This document shows, piece after piece, positions 826 through 52,702 of a stretch of DNA of 53,969 nucleotides. Within the stretch, counting starts at the first letter, position 1. Each line of letters starts with the position of its first letter. This DNA is from Deltaproteobacteria bacterium (lineage in GTDB: Bacteria; Desulfobacterota; Binatia; UBA9968): the NCBI GenBank assembly GCA_005879605.1, contig VBKE01000032.1, forward strand, positions 1 to 53,969, written 5' to 3'. The notes under the pieces are model-generated. The model was given only the letters and a program-made list of their open reading frames with translations, was not told the DNA's origin and ran no database searches. A program made the translations under genes and the position numbers.

Positions 826-2697
826 TTAGTTTTCCATGAAGCTCTTGAGCCGCTTGCTGCGGCTTGGGTGCCTGAGCTTCCGCAATGCTTTGGCTTCGAT
901 CTGGCGTATGCGCTCGCGCGTGACGGTAAACTTTTGACCCACTTCTTCCAAAGTATGATCGGATTTTTCGCCAATGCCGAAGCGCATGCGCAGTACCTGC
1001 TCCTCGCGCGGCGTGAGCGTGGCCAAAACCTTTCGTGTTTGTTCCTGGAGGTTGATATTGACGACCGCATCCGAAGGCGTGATGATTCGTTTGTCTTCGA
1101 TAAAATCACCCAGATGGCTATCTTCTTCTTCGCCGACGGGAGTTTCCAATGAGATCGGCTCTTTGGCGATCTTGAGAACCTTCCGCACCTTATCCAAAGG
1201 AATCTCCATCTTGGTGGCAATCTCCTCCGGGGTCGGTTCCCGTCCAATCTCCTGAACCAGATATCGCGAAGTACGGATCAATTTGTTGATGGTTTCAATC
1301 ATATGGACCGGGATGCGAATGGTTCGCGCCTGATCGGCAATTGCCCGGGTAATGGCTTGACGGATCCACCATGTGGCGTAGGTGGAGAATTTATAACCTC
1401 GCTGATATTCGAACTTATCGACCGCTTTCATCAAACCGATATTACCTTCCTGGATCAGATCCAAGAACTGCAGTCCCCGGTTGGTGTATTTCTTCGCAAT
1501 GCTTACGACCAAACGTAAATTGGCTTCGATCAGCTCTTTCTTTGCCAAATTCGCTTTGGTTTCACCTTCAATGATCGACCAGACGCGCCGCTTGATCTCC
1601 TCGGCCGGCATTTCCAAATCTCTCTCGATATGTTTGATGTCACGCCGCGCATTCTTGATCTCCTCCACCATGTTGAGAATCGCGTCGTGTCCCATGCGAA
1701 GCGAGCCCATGATCCGGTGCCAATCCCGCTTGCGCCCGTTAAGCCCTGACACCAGTTTTAGCACTTCGGTAGACGGTTTCCCGGTTTTCAACTCGAAATC
1801 CTTGATGCGTCGTTCAAAAGTCTGCATCCTATCCATCGCCTTCTTTAGTCCTTCGGCGATGGCTTCCGTCTGTCTGCGATTGAGCTGAAGCGCTTTCAGG
1901 CCATTGATGAGCTTTACTTGATTTTTAGCCAGGCTCTCCAGGAGCGCGTCGCGTCGTTGCGCCGAAAGCCTCCTTGCCTCCAGCTGCCTTTTGATTTTTT
2001 CTTTATCATTGGCGGTACGCCGAATTTTTCCTATTTGATCGAGCAACCGCTTTTCATGTACCTCTTCGTTCTCGAGATATTCGGCTTCTTCCTCGCCTTC
2101 CTCTTTAATAATCTCCCGGACACGGATCTCGTGCTGCGCCAGTTTTTCCCCCAGCTCAAGAACGTAAGTTAACGCCAACGGGCTTGATAGCACTTCATCG
2201 ATAACCTGTTTTTCTCCCTCTTCGATTTTCTTGGCGATCTCGACCTCGCCCTCACGGCTCAGAAGAGAGACCGTTCCCATTTCACGCAGGTACATCCGCA
2301 CGGGATCACCGGTCTTGCCGACCATATCGCCTTCAACGTCGCTATCGATTTCCTTTTCTTCTTCCTCCTCTTCGGCCAGCTCCTCGCCAGCGCTACCAAG
2401 ACTCACCCTTTGGTTGGCATCGACAACTTCAATGTCCATTTCCCCAAAAATGGACATGACATCGTCGATCTGATCGGGCGATACGACTTCGGCGGGGAGC
2501 ATGTCGTTGACGTCATCATAGGTCAAATAGCCCTTTTCTTTACCCAGATCGATGAGCTTCTTGACCTCCTTCATGTTTTTCTTCTCCACCGGCTGCCCGG
2601 CCTCGGCGGCCAATTTCTCTTTTCTTACCGGGTGGTGATCTTCGGTTCGGGCCTTCGGCGTTCTAGTTGGCGTTCTTTTCGTACGACGTCTTGCCAT
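826..2697 (-). CDS. rpoD: Primary sigma factor RpoD (sigma-70)
   Basis: Housekeeping sigma subunit that directs RNA polymerase to -35/-10 promoters. All regions are present in order: 1.1 (about residues 40-100), an acidic stretch, 1.2 ([14 protein letters not shown]), a non-conserved insert of about 200 residues, region 2 ([16 protein letters not shown], then [16 protein letters not shown] for -10 melting and recognition), region 3, and region 4 with the -35 helix-turn-helix ([20 protein letters not shown]). 623 residues is normal for group 1. The chosen ATG has an AAAGGA site 8 bases upstream but overlaps dnaG by 73 bp. An internal ATG at 2574 also has a GGAG site and would leave a 50-bp gap, so the true N-terminus could be 41 residues shorter. 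Last gene of the rpsU-dnaG-rpoD operon. Confidence 0.97.
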
Positions 2698-4427
2698 TCT
2701 AGTATCCTTTCTCTCTTGGCTTTCTCGTCTTTCTGTTCTTCCGCGGTGCGAATTGCGATCCGCAGATTTCGCTCCAACCCTCGTAGATGCTTTCGTCGCA
2801 AGTGCGCCAAGCAGTCAGCCGCCATCTTTGCACAATCAGCCTCAGGGATGGACTCCGCTTCCAAAGCCAGCGCCGCCATCTGAGCCGCCATATCCGGCGA
2901 TAACCCTTGGGTGACCCGAAACAGATCCAACCTACCTCGTTCTTGCCACTCGGAGAGGATCAGGTCAATAACCGGTTGCCATGGCTGTTCAATCCAGCGC
3001 CTAACTTCCTTCTCTTTCTCAACGTCTCCGATCACCGAAGGGAAGCGGAGCATTAAGCTGATCAGTGAACGCTCCGCTATATCCTCACGATTTTGGGCGA
3101 GCGATGATAGCGGAACCGCTGCCGTTCGAGCTGCCGGCGGATGACTTCCTCGGATAACATTCGGACGACGTAGAACCTCTTCGCGCACACCTAGAGTATC
3201 CACGGCACGGCGCACTAACAGATCAACTTCAAACGGGCTCCTTACCCTGGTCAAAACGCGACTGATCTCCGACGCGGTCTGACTCTTTCCCTCCAAGGTC
3301 TTGCCATAGCGGTCTTCCAACCATGAAAAGTAGTAATCCGCCAACGACACCGCCCGTTCGAGGATATCTTCGACGGCCGCCTTGCCATTGCGACGAACAA
3401 AAGTATCCGGGTCTTCGCCGCTCGGCAAAAAGGCGGCCCGTCCCAGCAATCCCGCTTCAACGAAAATCTCAAAGCTGCGCGCCGCCGCCTTGTGTCCGGC
3501 ATCGTCGCCGTCGAACAAAGCGATGATGTTTTTTGTGTAACGCGCAAGGACGCGGACGTGGTCAACAGTGAGAGCGGTGCCCAGAGTCGCCACGGCGTAC
3601 GAGACGCCGTATTGAAACAAGGCGATGACGTCCAAATACCCCTCCACGACAACGACTCGGTCGACTTTGCGAATTCCTTCCTTTGCTTGGAAAAGACCGT
3701 ACAGTGTTGAACCCTTATGAAACAGCGGCGTCTCGCTCGAGTTCAGGTATTTCGGCAACCCTTGGTCGAGGACACGCCCCCCGAAACCAACAACTTTCCC
3801 GCCGGCATTGACGATGGGAAACATCACGCGCGCAAAAAACTTCTCGTAAAACTGCCGGGGATTGCGCTGTCCCATGAGCCCCAGACGAAGGGTATCGTTG
3901 ACTGAGATCTTCTCTTTCTTGATCAAATCCAGCAAGCCCGACCCGTTTTGGGGTGTGTAACCAAGCATGAAGCTCCGGCCCGTAGTTTCATCCACGCCTC
4001 GTGATTTCAGATAATCCAGCGCCTTTTTTCCCTCTGGATGGCTATAAAGCAGGCTCTGGTAATGGGCTGCGACCCGCTCATTGATGCGATACAAGGATTC
4101 CCTTTCGCCCATTTCATTCGGCGCGCCTGCCCGCTCTGCCCGCCCGATGGTGATACCGTAGCGCTTGGCAACGCGCTCTACGGCCTCGGGAAAAGTCAGG
4201 TGATCGTACTGCATTAAAAACTGAAAAATGCTCCCGCCCGTCTGGCAACCGAAGCAGTGGAAAATTCCCTTTTCTTCATTGACGGTGAACGAAGGCGTCT
4301 TTTCCGAATGGAAGGGGCATAGCCCCATGTGGTTTCGGCCAGTCTTCTTGAGCGTGACATAATCCGAGATCACCTCGACGATCGAAGCGCGGTCTCGAAT
4401 CTCAATGATTTTGTCCTGGCTAATCAT
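2625..4427 (-). CDS. dnaG: DNA primase DnaG
   Basis: Makes RNA primers at the replication fork in concert with the DnaB helicase. The N-terminal zinc ribbon is visible as C37-x2-H40 ... C58-x2-C61. The RNA polymerase core follows, with the TOPRIM domain carrying the acidic metal-binding motifs ([11 protein letters not shown] and [13 protein letters not shown]). The C-terminal third is less conserved, as usual for the helicase-binding domain. 600 residues is typical. The ATG start lies 9 bp after the cvpA stop and the 3' end overlaps rpoD, consistent with one transcript. Confidence 0.96.
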
Positions 4428-44736: not shown

Positions 44737-45741
44737 ATGAATTTTCCTATCGACTTACAGAATCGTTGGCACGGTAAGCGCTTCAACTCTTACAACCGCG
44801 TGCTGAAAGATACTTTTGCCGCACGGGTTTATAAAATCGGACTGCGGATGGACTTTACCTGCCCGAATCGAGACGGCAGAGTTGCGGTGGGCGGCTGCGC
44901 GTACTGCAACAACGCCAGTCACACACCCCAGGATTATCGCCCGCGCACTTCCGTAACCGAGCAGCTCCGACAAGGCGCAGCGGCCATCCGCAGGCGGCAC
45001 AAGGCGGAGCAATTTATCGCCTATTTCCAAAGCTACACGAACACGTACGATTCGGTGTCGAAATTGGAGAAACTCTATCGTGAAGCGTTGGAATTTCCCG
45101 AGGTGGTCGGCCTTTCCATTGCGACGCGCCCGGACTGTGTTCCCGACGACGTCCTCGACCTCATCGCCGATATCTCGCATCACACGTACGTTTGGCTCGA
45201 ACTCGGATTGGAATCGATCCATGAACGGACGCTTCGATGGGTCAATCGCGGCCACGGTGTGCAGGAATTCATCGACGCGGTTGAACGCTCCAAACGTCGC
45301 AACCTCCACGTTTGTACGCACCTCATACTGGGTTTCCCCGGGGAAACTCGCGACGATATGCTGCAAGCTCCGGCGCTGCTCAATAACCTTGATATCGATG
45401 GTGTAAAGCTTCACAATCTCCACGTCATTAAGAACACGGTTCTTGCAAAGTTTTATAGCGGGGGCCATTTCACGCTTTTCAGCCAAGCCGAATACGTTTC
45501 CCTGGTGGTAGATTTCCTCGAACTCTTAAACCCGGAAGTGATCGTGCACCGTCTCACCGGCGAGACCTATCGAGCGATAACGATCGCTCCCGATTGGTCC
45601 GTCAATAAAATCGGCGTACATAACGCCATTGTTAAGGAGCTCGAAGAGCGCGATAGCTGGCAAGGCAAGAGATATTCATCCGGGACCGTTCAAAAGCTCG
45701 GGCGAACGATCTCCCAATTCACTCAAGGAGCAGAGCTTTGA
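44737..45741 (+). CDS. TIGR01212-family radical SAM protein (YhcC-like)
   Basis: 334 residues. The iron-sulfur cysteines follow the spacing of this family: C42, C54 and C57 (TCPNRDGRVAVGGCAYC). QRWHGKRFNSYNRVLKDTF-like N-terminus, FIAYFQSYTNTYDSV, LSIATRPDCVPDDVLDL, LELGLESIHERTLRWVNRGH and THLILGFPGETRDDM are all conserved. The substrate is not established; tRNA-related roles have been proposed for relatives. Its TGA stop overlaps the TTG start of the next gene by 4 bp, so the two are translationally coupled. Confidence 0.93.
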   Translation: MNFPIDLQNRWHGKRFNSYNRVLKDTFAARVYKIGLRMDFTCPNRDGRVAVGGCAYCNNASHTPQDYRPRTSVTEQLRQGAAAIRRRHKAEQFIAYFQSYTNTYDSVSKLEKLYREALEFPEVVGLSIATRPDCVPDDVLDLIADISHHTYVWLELGLESIHERTLRWVNRGHGVQEFIDAVERSKRRNLHVCTHLILGFPGETRDDMLQAPALLNNLDIDGVKLHNLHVIKNTVLAKFYSGGHFTLFSQAEYVSLVVDFLELLNPEVIVHRLTGETYRAITIAPDWSVNKIGVHNAIVKELEERDSWQGKRYSSGTVQKLGRTISQFTQGAEL

Positions 45742-46640
45742 ACGGCCACATCGGCTTAATTCATTCAATTCTTCCCGCGACGGTAGACCTCCACGTCATC
45801 GTGCCTGACGGCCATCCCTCGGCTCGCAATTTGGGATCGGAGCGCGTGGGCTCCGGTACGATCATCGATCCCGACGGCACCATCTTGACCGTTCACTACG
45901 TCACGGTGGGAGCAACGTCCATCACGGTGACTCTCCCGGACGGCGCCCAATACCCAGGACACCTGGCTGCGCAGGACCAAGAAACCGGCCTTGCGCTCGT
46001 CAAAGTTTCGGCTCGAGATTTGCCTTTCCTTAAGCTTGCGCCCTCTGACTCACTGGCATTGGGTCAACCGGTGATCATGATCGCCAGCAGTGGACAGACC
46101 GACCGGCGCGTGAGCGGCGGATATGTGAGCTCCACGGAGTGTTATGATGGCCATTGGGAATATATGCTGGAAAAAACCATTCGCGTCACCACGTTCAATC
46201 CAGGGTTCGGCGGTGGCACGCTGGCAAATTTCAGGGGAGAATTGCTTGGCGTGGTGTCGCTTAATTTGAATGAGGTCGGCAAGTTCTCACTCGCCATCCC
46301 GATCGACTACTACCGAATTTACGAACAGGAGTTGAAACAGTATGGACAGGTGCGCAGCCGTCCTCGACGTCCGTGGTTGGGATTTTATCCCCAACCCATG
46401 GCTGGGCATGTCGTGGTCGGAGGCGTCGTGCCGGGCAGTCCGGCTGCAAGGTTTGGTCTCAAGGAGGGGGACATCATTATCAGTGTGGAAAAAAAAGAGA
46501 TCCGCTCTCGACCGGAGCTTTATCAGGAGATGTGGAAAAAGCGCCCGGGAGAACGGATCTCGTTTAGAATTCTGAGAGATGAGCAGTCTTTCGAACTGGA
46601 AGTAATCGGCGGAGACCGATCCGATCGCTACCGCTCCTAG
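45738..46640 (+). CDS. HtrA-like protein with PDZ domain lacking the Ser-His-Asp triad
   Basis: 300 residues. The trypsin-like fold of DegP/HtrA proteins is recognisable (GSGTIIDPDGTILTVHYVTV, TLPDGAQYPGHLAAQD), followed by a PDZ domain (about 205-295; VVGGVVPGSPAARFGLKEGD). The catalytic positions are changed. LTNNHVV reads LTVHYVT, so Tyr54 occupies the His site with a His one place earlier. TDLAV reads TGLAL (Gly84), and GNSGGPL reads GFGGGTL (Gly158 for Ser). No signal peptide is seen, so it may be cytoplasmic. The TTG start has AAGGAG 11 bases upstream and overlaps the radical SAM stop. Probably a non-proteolytic binding or scaffold protein. Confidence 0.85.
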   Translation: MNGHIGLIHSILPATVDLHVIVPDGHPSARNLGSERVGSGTIIDPDGTILTVHYVTVGATSITVTLPDGAQYPGHLAAQDQETGLALVKVSARDLPFLKLAPSDSLALGQPVIMIASSGQTDRRVSGGYVSSTECYDGHWEYMLEKTIRVTTFNPGFGGGTLANFRGELLGVVSLNLNEVGKFSLAIPIDYYRIYEQELKQYGQVRSRPRRPWLGFYPQPMAGHVVVGGVVPGSPAARFGLKEGDIIISVEKKEIRSRPELYQEMWKKRPGERISFRILRDEQSFELEVIGGDRSDRYRS

Positions 46641-47392: not shown

Positions 47393-48568
47393 CTATTCCA
47401 GTTTCTCTCCCGCCTCACCAGCCGCTGCCTCGGCCGCTGCGTTTTCCAGTTCCATTCGCACCTCAGAATCGTCCTCGACCTGCAGCCGCCCTTTTAACGC
47501 GCCCGTTGCCTGACGCGAACCGATCCGGCCCAAAGCCCACGCCGCATGGCCCCGCACCAGCGGTTCCTCATCGCCCAAAGCGCGAATCAAAGCCGGCACC
47601 GCTTCGAAACTGCGAATGTTACCGAGGGCAACGGCAACATTGCGCAAAAATCCGCGGCGCTTGGCTCGCATAATCGGACTTCCATGAAAGCGCTTGCGGA
47701 ACTCCTCGCGGCTCAGTGACAAGAGCGGAATCAAATCAGGAGCATGAAGGCCCGGTCTCGGTCGGTAGCCGGTTTCGGATGTCGGCTTTGCCTTCACGTT
47801 ATAGGGACAAACCTCCTGGCAGATATCGCAACCAAAAATATGATCGCCCATCAGGGGTCGAAGATGACGCGGAATCCAACCCTTGAGTTCAATGGTCAAG
47901 TAAGAAATGCAGCGGCGAGCGTCCAAGACATAAGGTCCTACGAATGCTCCCGTGGGACAGGCCTTGAGACACAAATCACACTTTCCGCATCGATCCCGAA
48001 TCGGGCGGTCATAAGCCAGCGGGATACTCAAAAACAATTCCCCAAGAAAAAACCACGAGCCTTTTTTCGGCGAAATAAGATGAGTGTTCTTCCCGATCCA
48101 GCCTACTCCCCCAACTCCGGCATAATCCCTTTCCAACACGGGACCCGAATCGACGAAAGCCTTTCCTTCAACAGGCGCGTGGCATAGATCGCGAATGATC
48201 GTCAAGAGCGATTCCAAACGACGACGCATTAAATCGTGATAGTCATCGCCCCAAGCATAGCGGGAAATCCAACCCTTGGGTTCACCCGGCATCACTGACC
48301 GCGGAAAGGGCGTAAAATAATTCATGCCGACCGAGACTAGGGAAAACGCCCAAGGGACGAGTTTCTGTGGATCTCGCCGCAGCTCCTCGGTTCGTCGCAT
48401 GTACGCCAACTCGCCTGCCAACCCCTTACGCAGCCATTCCGCGAAGGAGTTTTCATGAGGCGGGGGTTTGACGGGAGAAATACCAACCAATTCAAAGCCG
48501 AGTCGCTGAGCCTCTTCTTTGATTCGCAACGATAATGAGGCATCCGGCCGACTCATTTTAGAATTCAT
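47393..48568 (-). CDS. queG: Epoxyqueuosine reductase QueG with HEAT repeats
   Basis: Last step of queuosine synthesis in tRNA wobble bases, reducing epoxyqueuosine with cobalamin and two 4Fe-4S clusters. 391 residues: cobalamin-binding part (LGFELVGISPV, VSVGMNYFTP, DYHDLMRRRL, FVDSGPVLERDYA), ferredoxin-like cysteines CGKCDLCLKACPTGA and CDICQEVCPYN, and C-terminal HEAT repeats (about 300-375; ALIRALGDEEPLVRGHAAWA, LGRIGS). The start may be four codons later (MSRPDAS). It stands alone between the lipoprotein and DUF2203 genes. Confidence 0.95.
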   Translation of the reverse strand: MNSKMSRPDASLSLRIKEEAQRLGFELVGISPVKPPPHENSFAEWLRKGLAGELAYMRRTEELRRDPQKLVPWAFSLVSVGMNYFTPFPRSVMPGEPKGWISRYAWGDDYHDLMRRRLESLLTIIRDLCHAPVEGKAFVDSGPVLERDYAGVGGVGWIGKNTHLISPKKGSWFFLGELFLSIPLAYDRPIRDRCGKCDLCLKACPTGAFVGPYVLDARRCISYLTIELKGWIPRHLRPLMGDHIFGCDICQEVCPYNVKAKPTSETGYRPRPGLHAPDLIPLLSLSREEFRKRFHGSPIMRAKRRGFLRNVAVALGNIRSFEAVPALIRALGDEEPLVRGHAAWALGRIGSRQATGALKGRLQVEDDSEVRMELENAAAEAAAGEAGEKLE

Positions 48569-48656: not shown

Positions 48657-49106
48657 TTAGTGATAAGAAGTATTGCCGTCAGGATCGGTTTCCTCGCCGT
48701 CGAGCAGCGCTCGCCGGCCGGCAAAGCCATCCTCGATGCGGTGCCAGTGGCCGACGCTGGTTTCACCAAGCTGCCAACAGAGGAACACGACCTCCGCCCC
48801 GAGCACGCAAGGGAAATCGATCAGTCCTTGTTCGATCCCCTTGCATATGCAGCCATAGCTGTGGATTTCTTCCACCCAGCCTTTGACCTGTTCCAACAGC
48901 CGGGCAATTTCTTCATCTTCACGCAGTCGGTCCATGAGGTTCGGCGCCTCCGGATCGAGCCGTTCGTTTCGAATCACAGTTTCACTTTTGCTTTTTAGTC
49001 GACGGATATTTTCCAGAATTTTGTCGATCAACGGGCGCACCGAGGGAAGCAAAGCATTCGCTTCGTTGACGGTAAAGAGACGGGGAAAGCTTGAAGACGA
49101 TACCAT
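48657..49106 (-). CDS. DUF2203 family protein
   Basis: 149 residues. The DUF2203 pattern is clear: RLFTVNEANALLPSVRPLID at the start, a helical middle, VEEIHSYGCICKGIEQGLID, and the acidic, aromatic VVFLCWQLGETSVGHWHRIE near the end. The conserved His, Trp and Glu suggest a ligand- or metal-binding site, but no function is known. It follows the REC-LpxC gene by 53 bp on the same strand and may be co-transcribed. Confidence 0.85.
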   Translation of the reverse strand: MVSSSSFPRLFTVNEANALLPSVRPLIDKILENIRRLKSKSETVIRNERLDPEAPNLMDRLREDEEIARLLEQVKGWVEEIHSYGCICKGIEQGLIDFPCVLGAEVVFLCWQLGETSVGHWHRIEDGFAGRRALLDGEETDPDGNTSYH

Positions 49107-49159: not shown

Positions 49160-50458
49160 TCATAAATTCATGCCGCTGCGCAGCTCGCGCAACAACGCAA
49201 TATTGTCGGAATGGCCCGTCATATGGGCCGTGACGGCCCCACGTATCGGTTTCCCGAGCAGATAGAAGTCTCCTAAGATGTCCAAGATTTTGTGGCGCGC
49301 AAGCTCATCCGGGAAGCGCAAATCCGTGTTGATGATTTTTTTATCGTCGATCAAGATGCAGTTATTGACTTTCCCACCGCTGACGAGGCCCATGCTCTGT
49401 AGCTTTTCAATATCCTTAAGAAACCCGAAGGTCCTTGCCGGCGCGATTTCAGCTTTGAAAAAATCCGGGCCTTTGAAAAAGTAGCTGTGCTCTTGCAGGC
49501 CGACCGGCTTCGGGTACTTCAGAACATAGCGGACCGAAAAGCGTTCGGCGGGTTCGATGCTGATGAATTCTCCCGCCTCGATTCCTACTCGATACGGCCG
49601 ATCCACAACGATTTCCGCCCACTCCTGTTCCTCTTCGTGGACACCGGCTTCTTCGATCAAATGACAAAACTCCACGGCGGAACCATCCAGAATTGGAATT
49701 TCTCCCTGGATTTTCACCAGCAAATTTGTGATCCCGTAGCTGTGCAATACGGCCAAAAAATGCTCGACGGTGCCGACCGCGAATCCCCTGGTCCGAAGTG
49801 AGGTGGCGTAACCCGTCGATCCCACATAATCCAGGTGGGCCGGAATCGTGACGTCGCCGGAAATTCCGGTGAACAAAATCCCGCTGTTCGGAGGAAGCGG
49901 ATGCAGGATCAGCCCTGTCTTGATCCCGGAGTGGAGCCCCTGCCCCGAAATGACCACGCTCTTTTTCAGAGTCTTTTGTCTGATCGGCTGCCCAGCCGCG
50001 CCGTTTTTCGCCGCGGCCGCGCCCGTCCTTGCGGTTTTTCGTCGCTTGGATCCGTTGCCATTCACTTTTTTGGCTTGGGGAACCGACAACTCGCCGAGAG
50101 CCCGCTGGACGGTCAAGAGCAAGCCATCCAGTGATACCGGCTTTTCAATGAAGTCAAATGCGCCGAACTTCGTGGCAGTCACCGCGGTGTGAATATTGCC
50201 ATGCCCTGAAACCATCACGACGTTAGTTTGCGGTTCCTGGCTCTTGATTTCCTTGAGCAGTCCGATGCCGTCGATGTGAGGCATCCAGATATCAAGGAGG
50301 ACGAGGCTCGGTTTTTCTTGTCTGATCAGTTCCAATGCACGAGTGCCATCCGCGGTATCCAACACGCGATAGCCCTCGTCGCTTAAAACTTCACGTAGCG
50401 ATTCCCTCACTCCATCTTCGTCGTCCACGACCAAGATCGTTTTTGCCTGCACTTTCAA
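49160..50458 (-). CDS. lpxC: Fusion of an NtrX-type receiver domain to UDP-3-O-acyl-GlcNAc deacetylase LpxC
   Basis: 432 residues in one uninterrupted frame. Residues 5-122 are a complete response-regulator receiver: acidic pair D12-D13, phosphoacceptor D56 (VLLDIWMP), S84 (VMVSGHGN) and K106 (FDFIEKP). The local wording matches NtrX receivers. Residues 123-158 are a Lys/Ala/Gly linker. Residues 159-432 are LpxC, starting IRQKTLKKSVVISGQGLHSG, with zinc ligands H233, H389 and D393, general base E232 (TVEHFLAVLHS) and H416 (GHSDN). LpxC commits UDP-acyl-GlcNAc to lipid A. The kinase gene upstream is 12 bp away. Phosphorylation could thus set LPS synthesis directly. Confidence 0.94.
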   Translation of the reverse strand: MKVQAKTILVVDDEDGVRESLREVLSDEGYRVLDTADGTRALELIRQEKPSLVLLDIWMPHIDGIGLLKEIKSQEPQTNVVMVSGHGNIHTAVTATKFGAFDFIEKPVSLDGLLLTVQRALGELSVPQAKKVNGNGSKRRKTARTGAAAAKNGAAGQPIRQKTLKKSVVISGQGLHSGIKTGLILHPLPPNSGILFTGISGDVTIPAHLDYVGSTGYATSLRTRGFAVGTVEHFLAVLHSYGITNLLVKIQGEIPILDGSAVEFCHLIEEAGVHEEEQEWAEIVVDRPYRVGIEAGEFISIEPAERFSVRYVLKYPKPVGLQEHSYFFKGPDFFKAEIAPARTFGFLKDIEKLQSMGLVSGGKVNNCILIDDKKIINTDLRFPDELARHKILDILGDFYLLGKPIRGAVTAHMTGHSDNIALLRELRSGMNL

Positions 50459-50470
50459 TGTTCCTCCAAG

Positions 50471-52702
50471 TTAAGAGTGCATGATTTGCCTCTTGATGTC
50501 CGCAGCGGCGACCGGCTCATGCACCGGCAACTCGATCGTGAACCGAGTGCCCCGCGGCTCGTTCGGTCGCACGCGAACATAGCCACGATGATCCTCGACG
50601 ATTTGGCTCACAATCGTGAGCCCCAAACCCGTCCCGTTCTCTTTCGTCGAAAAATAAGGCTCGAAGATTTTTGATTTTATATCGGGGGCCAAACCGCATC
50701 CGTCATCCGAGACTTCCAGACAGACGACCGCCCGCGAGCGATCATAGCTCGTGGCGAGTCGAATTTCACCCTTTTCCGCTACGGCGGCGACAGCGTTGTC
50801 TAACAGATTGATCAAGACCCGCTTGATCTGCTCTCGATCCAGCTCCACCGGCGGAATCACACCCCGGCGAAAATGGAAATGGACCTCCCTGTGGCCCTCC
50901 TTAAACAGGAACAGCGCCTCCTGAACGATTTCATTGAGATCGCTGGTCGCGAGTTGCGCCGACGGCAGCCGTGCGAACTGAGAAAATTCGTTGACTAAAT
51001 TCTTTAATTCCTCCACCTGCTGGATAATCGTGGACGTGCATTTGTCCAGAATCGCGCCGTTGCCTTCGAGCATTGGGGCGTAGCGCTTCCGCAGCCGCTC
51101 GGCGGAGAGCTGTATCGGCGTCAGCGGGTTCTTGATTTCATGGGCAATTCGCCGTGCCACTTCCCGCCAGGCTTCCATCCTTTGGACCTTTTGAATCTGA
51201 GTAATATCTTCGAGAAAAACCATCACACCCACGGTGCGCCCCTCGTCATCGCGCAAGGAGGCTGCGCTTACCATCGCGGTGAGATGCTGCTCCGACAGCG
51301 GAATCTTTATCTCGCGTTCGACGCTGCCGCGGTCCTCCACGCTTTCGACAATTTCGCGCATGACGTGAAGTGATTCCGACTCGAAAACCTCTTCGTAATT
51401 CCTTCCCAGCGCTCCCGCTGCGCTCAATCCCAACATCCGCTCGGCAGCCATATTCCACGTGGTGATTTGTCCCGCGGGATTCACCGAAATCACGCCCGCC
51501 GCGACGTTGGCAAGGAGCGTCTCAACGAATTTGCCTCTGCGTTCGAGTTCGGCTGTGATCTGTTTCAAATCGCCCGTCATTTGGTTAAACGAATCCACGA
51601 GCGTCCCGATTTCATCATCCCCTCCCGATTCGATCTTGTAGTCCCAGTTCCCATGAGCCACCTCATGGGTTCCTTCCGCCAACTTCTGAATGGGCACCGT
51701 AATGCCCTTGGCGAGATAGAGACCGAACCAGGTCGCGGCAAAGATGATAACGAGAGTGATGAGCAGCAAGGTCAGGATGTAACTGTTTTTGACCGGCGTC
51801 TTAAGAAAAGCCAGATGCTTGTACTGTTCGTAGGAGCGCGAGATTTCCAGCGCCCGTTTGGTAATACTCTTCGGCACGAAGTAATCGACGACGACCACGC
51901 CGATAATCCGTCGATCGGCGCTATAGAGGGGCACCCCGCCTCGAATGACGTCACTTTCGCCGAACTCTTGCGTTCGGGTCACTTCCAATCCCCGCAGCGC
52001 CCGATTGAGAAATTCCGATTCAGCTTTGATGGTGACTCCGGTCGGCACTTGGTCGTTGAAGGCCACCACGACCAAGCGCCGGTCAGGAGAAAACAACTCC
52101 ACCGTTCCGAGATTGTACTCTCGCTGTTTACTCTGGACGAACTCTTTAAGCTCGCCGAGTCGCTGCGCGTCAAAAAGTCTCTCTTGCGAAATGCGCTGGC
52201 TCAATTGCCGCGCGTAAAACAGGGCATTGTTGGCCGAGTTCTGGTAGTACGTTTGCCCGATTTCCAATGAGCCTTGCAGCGAATTTTCGACTTGAAGGTC
52301 GAACCAGCGTTCAAACGAGCGGGTGACGAATCCACCGGCGATTACAAACAGCAGTAAGCTCGGGACCAGGGACAACCCCACGAACGCCAAAACCAAACGA
52401 ACGCGCAGTCGGGAACCGAGAATCCTCCTTTTGCGCTCGAAGACGAGTTTCACGAGGTTTCGGACCACGAGAAAAACCAGCAGAACGAGCAGAATGATGT
52501 TGATGTTGATGAGGAGAAAGAAAGCGATATTGCCGCTCAGGGAATACTCAGGGGAAACGTCGGGCAGTTGCACCTCGAAGAAGGCGAATACGATCACCAT
52601 CAACGTGGTGACGAGGATCACTAGCGCTTCACGCTTGCGGCGCTTGGCCTCTTCCAGCTTCAGGCTCTCCTCAATCGACTTGGCGGTGGTTGCGAGTTCC
52701 AT
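50471..52702 (-). CDS. NtrY-like sensor histidine kinase
   Basis: 743 residues. Membrane helices lie at about 25-45, 58-82 and 100-125, with a periplasmic sensing region (about 126-310) and a further helix (about 312-335). HAMP follows (about 336-390), then PAS (about 395-505; LANVAAGVISVNPAGQITTW), HisKA with the phospho-accepting His in EVARRIAHEIKNPLTPIQLS, and HATPase with NLLDNAVAAV, DDGCGLAP and GTGLGLTIV. This is the NtrY layout, whose usual partner is NtrX. Here the next gene is instead the receiver-LpxC fusion, so that receiver is its likely substrate. It follows DUF2905 by 39 bp. Confidence 0.93.
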   Translation of the reverse strand: MELATTAKSIEESLKLEEAKRRKREALVILVTTLMVIVFAFFEVQLPDVSPEYSLSGNIAFFLLININIILLVLLVFLVVRNLVKLVFERKRRILGSRLRVRLVLAFVGLSLVPSLLLFVIAGGFVTRSFERWFDLQVENSLQGSLEIGQTYYQNSANNALFYARQLSQRISQERLFDAQRLGELKEFVQSKQREYNLGTVELFSPDRRLVVVAFNDQVPTGVTIKAESEFLNRALRGLEVTRTQEFGESDVIRGGVPLYSADRRIIGVVVVDYFVPKSITKRALEISRSYEQYKHLAFLKTPVKNSYILTLLLITLVIIFAATWFGLYLAKGITVPIQKLAEGTHEVAHGNWDYKIESGGDDEIGTLVDSFNQMTGDLKQITAELERRGKFVETLLANVAAGVISVNPAGQITTWNMAAERMLGLSAAGALGRNYEEVFESESLHVMREIVESVEDRGSVEREIKIPLSEQHLTAMVSAASLRDDEGRTVGVMVFLEDITQIQKVQRMEAWREVARRIAHEIKNPLTPIQLSAERLRKRYAPMLEGNGAILDKCTSTIIQQVEELKNLVNEFSQFARLPSAQLATSDLNEIVQEALFLFKEGHREVHFHFRRGVIPPVELDREQIKRVLINLLDNAVAAVAEKGEIRLATSYDRSRAVVCLEVSDDGCGLAPDIKSKIFEPYFSTKENGTGLGLTIVSQIVEDHRGYVRVRPNEPRGTRFTIELPVHEPVAAADIKRQIMHS

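Follow-up and report, generated by a model that had tools for sequence, protein, structure and literature searches.

The window analysed here, 53,969 nucleotides from a genome of the class Binatia, holds a gene pair in which an NtrY-type sensor histidine kinase is followed by a single reading frame joining an NtrX-type receiver to LpxC, the sole LpxC found in the genome. It is likely that NtrY phosphorylates this receiver and thereby sets the activity of the attached LpxC, in which case the two genes would encode a two-component system having as its output the enzyme of the committed step in lipid A synthesis. According to this mechanism, the Cache-like sensor of the membrane kinase would read an extracytoplasmic cue, and NtrY would phosphorylate or dephosphorylate D56 of the fused protein; the receiver, held on a flexible linker, would then shift its docking on LpxC, or the dimer state, and this change would alter the deacetylase activity, so that lipid A output would directly track the state of the kinase. 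On balance we also favour a wider reading, in which one ancient fusion made the lipid A enzyme the response regulator of NtrY and became the main control of LPS in Binatia, Nitrospinota and several families, working without transcription and replacing the LapB-FtsH route, with the long forms of the fusion described below recording the conversion.

The fusion gene (49160..50458, reverse strand, as are all its parts) starts with a TTG codon at 50458-50456, which is preceded by a GGAGG ribosome-binding site (50463..50467) with a spacer of 4 nt, and its frame is open over 432 codons. The sequence-only reading had described this frame as an NtrX-like receiver and a complete LpxC joined by a basic linker and had named the key residues of both domains, and in all these respects it proved accurate. 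Indeed, Pfam recovers almost the whole of both domains, with scores well beyond the curated cut-offs. The receiver occupies residues 8-117 (Response_reg, PF00072, 1.2e-31; 50108..50437), has NtrX as its top NCBIfam receiver match and carries the complete response-regulator signature, D12, D13, D56, S84 and K106, the predicted phospho-acceptor Asp56 being encoded by GAT at 50291..50293. The deacetylase domain extends over residues 157-432 (49163..49990), matches the LpxC profile at residues 161-426 (PF03331, 1.8e-80), exceeds the equivalog cut-off of NCBIfam TIGR00325 and retains all catalytic residues, namely E232, H233, H389, D393 and H416. Between the two lies a linker (residues 124-156; 49991..50089) that is basic and rich in alanine and glycine. 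Within the window protein there is no Pfam match to the sigma-54 AAA+ domain, nor an HTH_8 match that would denote a Fis-type DNA-binding domain. LpxB is present in the source genome, and lipid A synthesis is thus to be expected; judging by its residues, its single copy and the presence of LpxB, the window protein is predicted to act as a deacetylase on UDP-3-O-acyl-GlcNAc.

Structure prediction agrees with these assignments. The AlphaFold model of the fused protein, obtained with an alignment of 80 sequences, has a pLDDT of 89 and a pTM of 0.86, with only the linker core (residues 127-152) predicted to be disordered at pLDDT values under 50. The LpxC part superimposes on A. aeolicus LpxC with Z 39.4 and 1.5 A over 264 residues, and the receiver matches an NtrX structure with Z 22.7, the structural match to the Brucella NtrX receiver corresponding to 51% identity. 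The pTM of 0.86 exceeds what would be expected for two independently placed domains of such size, which hints at a preferred arrangement of receiver and LpxC.

The kinase gene (50471..52702, reverse strand, 743 aa) lies upstream of the fusion gene on the same strand and ends 12 bp from it, as the sequence-only reading had noted when it called the product NtrY-type. This designation is borne out by the domain content, as NtrY_N, HAMP, PAS, HisKA and HATPase are all found above the Pfam cut-offs, and the predicted phosphorylated histidine, His521 (51140..51142, reverse strand), lies in a conserved HEIKNPL motif (AHEIKNPL). Modelling of the kinase N-terminus by AlphaFold (pTM 0.52) followed by Foldseek matches to the sensor domains of WalK and CitA suggests an extracytoplasmic Cache/PDC-like sensor, a resemblance that speaks to the fold class and not to the ligand. 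From the gene order and the NtrX ancestry of the receiver we infer that the kinase and the fused receiver are partners. Upstream of the kinase gene in the window lies ruvB. A DUF4390-like gene stands directly upstream of ntrY in many lineages (L012, L009, L257, L259, L260, L262 and L264), irrespective of whether a fused gene is nearby; its product may assist NtrY in sensing. In the class of the window, no such gene was found next to the kinase.

The earlier reading had also proposed mapping the spread of the architecture and of its kinase neighbours, and a survey of the class, of its wider phylum (Desulfobacterota) and of Nitrospinota places the fusion in the whole class as sampled, in further families and in Nitrospinota. 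LpxC was found in 140 of 148 genomes searched within the class, once per genome with the exception of G129, and the frames in these 140 genomes are nearly all about 410 aa or longer; of the few that are far shorter than 400 aa, the three checked all sit at contig ends. At the sequence level, receiver and LpxC share one frame in every Binatia-class genome examined (90/90), and an NtrY-like kinase lies directly upstream in all 87 class loci whose available upstream DNA exceeds 60 nt. In the exception, G129, a contig of 3.1 kb (C171; L041, L243) bears an additional, stand-alone LpxC, which groups in the tree with LpxC from outside the class and is therefore likely a contamination. Elsewhere in the phylum, the short form occurs in families f24, f26, f27, f40, f43, f67, f68, f86, f93 and f99, as well as in f49, where it is a second copy: there (L218 and L219, from G390 and G348) a canonical stand-alone lpxC is accompanied by a very divergent receiver-LpxC paralogue, with a branch length of 1.65 and the catalytic residues retained. 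A long form, composed of receiver, AAA+ remnant and LpxC, is found in families f18, f20, f50, f64, f70 and f88, and it also occurs in Nitrospinota. Of 24 Nitrospinota genomes, 20 carry LpxC, with a receiver in the same frame in 19 of these; the twentieth sequence ends before the position of the receiver and retains an AAA-like part. In one Nitrospinota locus (L010) an unrelated gene at 2278-3036, HNH-endonuclease-like by eye, separates ntrY and the fusion, and one locus of the survey (L131) carries an LpxC-FabZ fusion.

Several families beyond the class lack a kinase next to the fused gene. NtrY is nevertheless encoded elsewhere in 9 of the 11 genomes with an unlinked fused gene, often after DUF4390, and in all nine there is no receiver gene beside it within the DNA fetched around the kinase; a lone NtrY of this kind is what one would expect if it worked in trans with the fused protein. 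NtrY was not found in the other two genomes, one of which is 68% complete.

Conservation and selection are informative with respect to the function of the receiver. D12, D13, D56 and K106 are the same in all of 144 distinct fused proteins, and so are W58 and the pair G85-H86; position 84 is always S, T or C, and the zinc and catalytic positions of LpxC are kept wherever the sequence reaches them. The fused LpxC clade moreover has conserved residues of its own (G182, K249, C265 and P340), and the kinase H-box, HE(I/V)(K/R)NPL, is present in 107 of 108 kinases. Comparisons of species within a genus or family give dN/dS values that lie mostly between 0.05 and 0.15 for the receiver, between 0.04 and 0.16 for the LpxC domain and between 0.06 and 0.25 for the kinase; those of the linker span 0.13 to 1.2, and one divergent pair (f16) is higher in all parts. 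The receiver is thus under purifying selection like LpxC, while the linker drifts: together with the conserved residues, this pattern is what a working phospho-relay would predict, contrary to a passive tether.

The trees relate the fusion to NtrX. In the receiver tree, the fused receivers cluster with canonical NtrY-adjacent NtrX receivers (95/88), and the other NtrC-type regulators of the source genome that were placed in this tree fall outside that group. A canonical NtrX elsewhere in the source genome was considered and rejected, as all matches to the NtrX profile are below the curated cut-off and the best eight of them lie outside the NtrX clade. In the LpxC tree, every fused LpxC of either form falls into a single clade (100/99) that excludes stand-alone LpxC; the only row there that bears the stand-alone label is a long form truncated by its contig. 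These trees support a single joining of NtrX to LpxC, which preceded the divergence of several deep lineages. The genomic setting before the fusion may be reflected in L012, a Desulfobacterota locus with a stand-alone LpxC and the gene order lpxC, DUF4390, ntrY, ntrX, the ntrX of which codes for a normal AAA+ domain together with a Fis HTH; since several further loci likewise have NtrY downstream of lpxC, about as far away, lpxC probably neighboured ntrYX before the two were joined.

The long forms, exemplified by L009 5146-7245, L010 3076-5139, L209 and L197, have a Sigma54_activat-like middle part that lacks the GAFTGA loop, the acid pair of Walker B and the R-finger, and eight of them give no match to HTH_8, which is present in the canonical control L012. 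Retained sigma-54 activity was accordingly rejected for these proteins, as the required motifs are lost, and they appear to be without plausible sigma-54 output. Walker A is mostly retained, so that their AAA+ part may bind nucleotide and a second input to LpxC is possible. The long forms look like survivors of a step between NtrX and the short receiver-LpxC form, and we infer an order of fusion, AAA+ decay and deletion; the LpxC tree requires repeated loss of the AAA+ part, or its regain, which seems unlikely. The sequence-only reading had held that the AAA+ and DNA-binding parts of NtrX were replaced by the enzyme. This evolutionary part of its proposal is well supported by the NtrX ancestry of the receiver, the absence of both parts in the window protein and the decayed AAA+ of relatives, although the word replaced is perhaps slightly off, as the long forms suggest that LpxC joined NtrX first and that the AAA+ part decayed later. 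The physiological part, according to which an envelope signal would tune LPS synthesis through phosphotransfer within seconds, is compatible with the conservation and with the gene linkage.

With this evidence at hand, other explanations can be weighed against control of LpxC activity by phosphorylation. An artefact of assembly or annotation, or a fused copy that is inactive while a normal LpxC does the work, is a possibility the earlier reading had itself named as fatal to its claim, and one that the nature of the source assembly (a fragmented metagenome bin of 6.6 Mb, 94% complete and with 7% contamination) would invite; the probability that we assign to it is negligible, as the same fusion recurs in 90 genomes of the class, in some cases on assemblies of one to six contigs, which rules out an in-frame junction made by assembly error, and no second LpxC was found in the source genome. 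Furthermore, two intact domains in one frame that are both under purifying selection do not come together by chance. Equally improbable is that the fused protein still regulates transcription, with LpxC as a passenger: the NtrX ancestry of the receiver would fit, but the window protein has neither the AAA+ nor the DNA-binding domain, and even the long forms, with their damaged AAA+ motifs, lack the HTH.

Two further explanations leave the receiver a function with respect to LpxC. One is that the receiver sets the amount of LpxC, phosphorylation exposing or hiding the protein for FtsH, ClpXP or Lon in replacement of the LapB/YejM-FtsH route of enterics, and response regulators that work via proteolysis, such as RssB, do exist. 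LpxC of E. coli is in fact controlled by proteolysis (PMC13333357), and no LapB match over the cut-off was found in 39 genomes, which leaves room for another control of LpxC. This explanation is however less direct, and the tight conservation of the receiver fits activity and amount alike; we regard it as rather unlikely. Still less probable is that the receiver mainly docks LpxC on the membrane kinase, or dimerises it, and so brings lipid A synthesis to the membrane, with phosphorylation being of minor importance. NtrY is a membrane protein whose gene adjoins the fusion, and dimerisation is common among receivers, but a scaffold would not require D12, D13, D56 and K106 unchanged across 144 sequences, nor a kinase that retains its H-box. 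Activity control through the NtrY phospho-relay thus remains the preferred reading.

Enzyme-output response regulators are already known: in CheB, PleD and RpfG a receiver precedes a catalytic domain that is regulated by phosphorylation. The outputs of these proteins are signalling enzymes, whereas the fusion has as its output a committed biosynthetic enzyme that is present as a single copy. The likeness to NtrY-NtrX comprises the kinase domains (NtrY_N, HAMP, PAS and HisKA), the order of kinase gene then regulator gene, and a receiver that belongs to the NtrX clade and is 51% identical to that of Brucella NtrX; the difference is that NtrX is a sigma-54-type DNA-binding regulator, while the fusion is devoid of AAA+ and HTH and has an enzyme as output. 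Effects of NtrYX on the envelope are known, and these extend indirectly to lpxC and LPS (PMC7240162). In Rhodobacter sphaeroides, loss of NtrYX raises the lpxC transcript 8.8-fold and increases LPS, an effect that is indirect there (PMC7240162), and for this reason we lean, weakly, towards phosphorylation restraining LpxC in the fused protein. Another two-component regulator, DVU2934 of Desulfovibrio vulgaris, is directed at lpxC (PMC3333781), but it works on the gene as a DNA-binding protein, unlike the fused receiver, which is joined to the enzyme itself.

With respect to LpxC, the fused form has the full-length domain with all catalytic positions, Z 39 to solved structures and the status of sole copy, and differs by its additional N-terminal receiver and linker and by its separate clade. 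Known control of LpxC is exerted by proteolysis or by bound proteins, LapB inhibiting and MurA stimulating its activity directly (PMC13333357), whereas the fused LpxC carries its own receiver. LpxC-FabZ bifunctional proteins are fusions too, but there the partner is a second enzyme and not a signalling domain. We found no published description of a receiver-LpxC fusion in the searchable literature, although an unremarked entry in architecture databases or in subscription papers may exist; LpxC as the output of a response regulator thus appears to be new within that literature.

It is still an open question how cells coordinate LPS synthesis with the other parts of the envelope, and it is only recently that direct control of LpxC activity has come to be recognised (PMC13333357). 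Here, an envelope sensor probably controls LpxC directly and not through genes, and as two neighbouring genes unite sensor, switch and committed enzyme over deep lineages, two proteins would suffice to test how a signal is turned into LPS output. The fusion also provides a well-documented case in which a transcription regulator appears to have shed its DNA-directed parts and become a regulated metabolic enzyme, and the interface between receiver and LpxC may expose an allosteric site on an antibiotic target.

Downstream of the fusion gene in the window follow, on the reverse strand, the gene of a DUF2203 protein (48657-49106) and, after it, that of a QueG with C-terminal HEAT repeats (47393-48568; Pfam). 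On the forward strand, 45738-46640 encodes an HtrA-like protein with Trypsin_2 and PDZ domains (Pfam), in which glycine occupies both the catalytic Asp and Ser positions (TGLALVKV and NPGFGGGTL), and which is thus probably a pseudo-protease.
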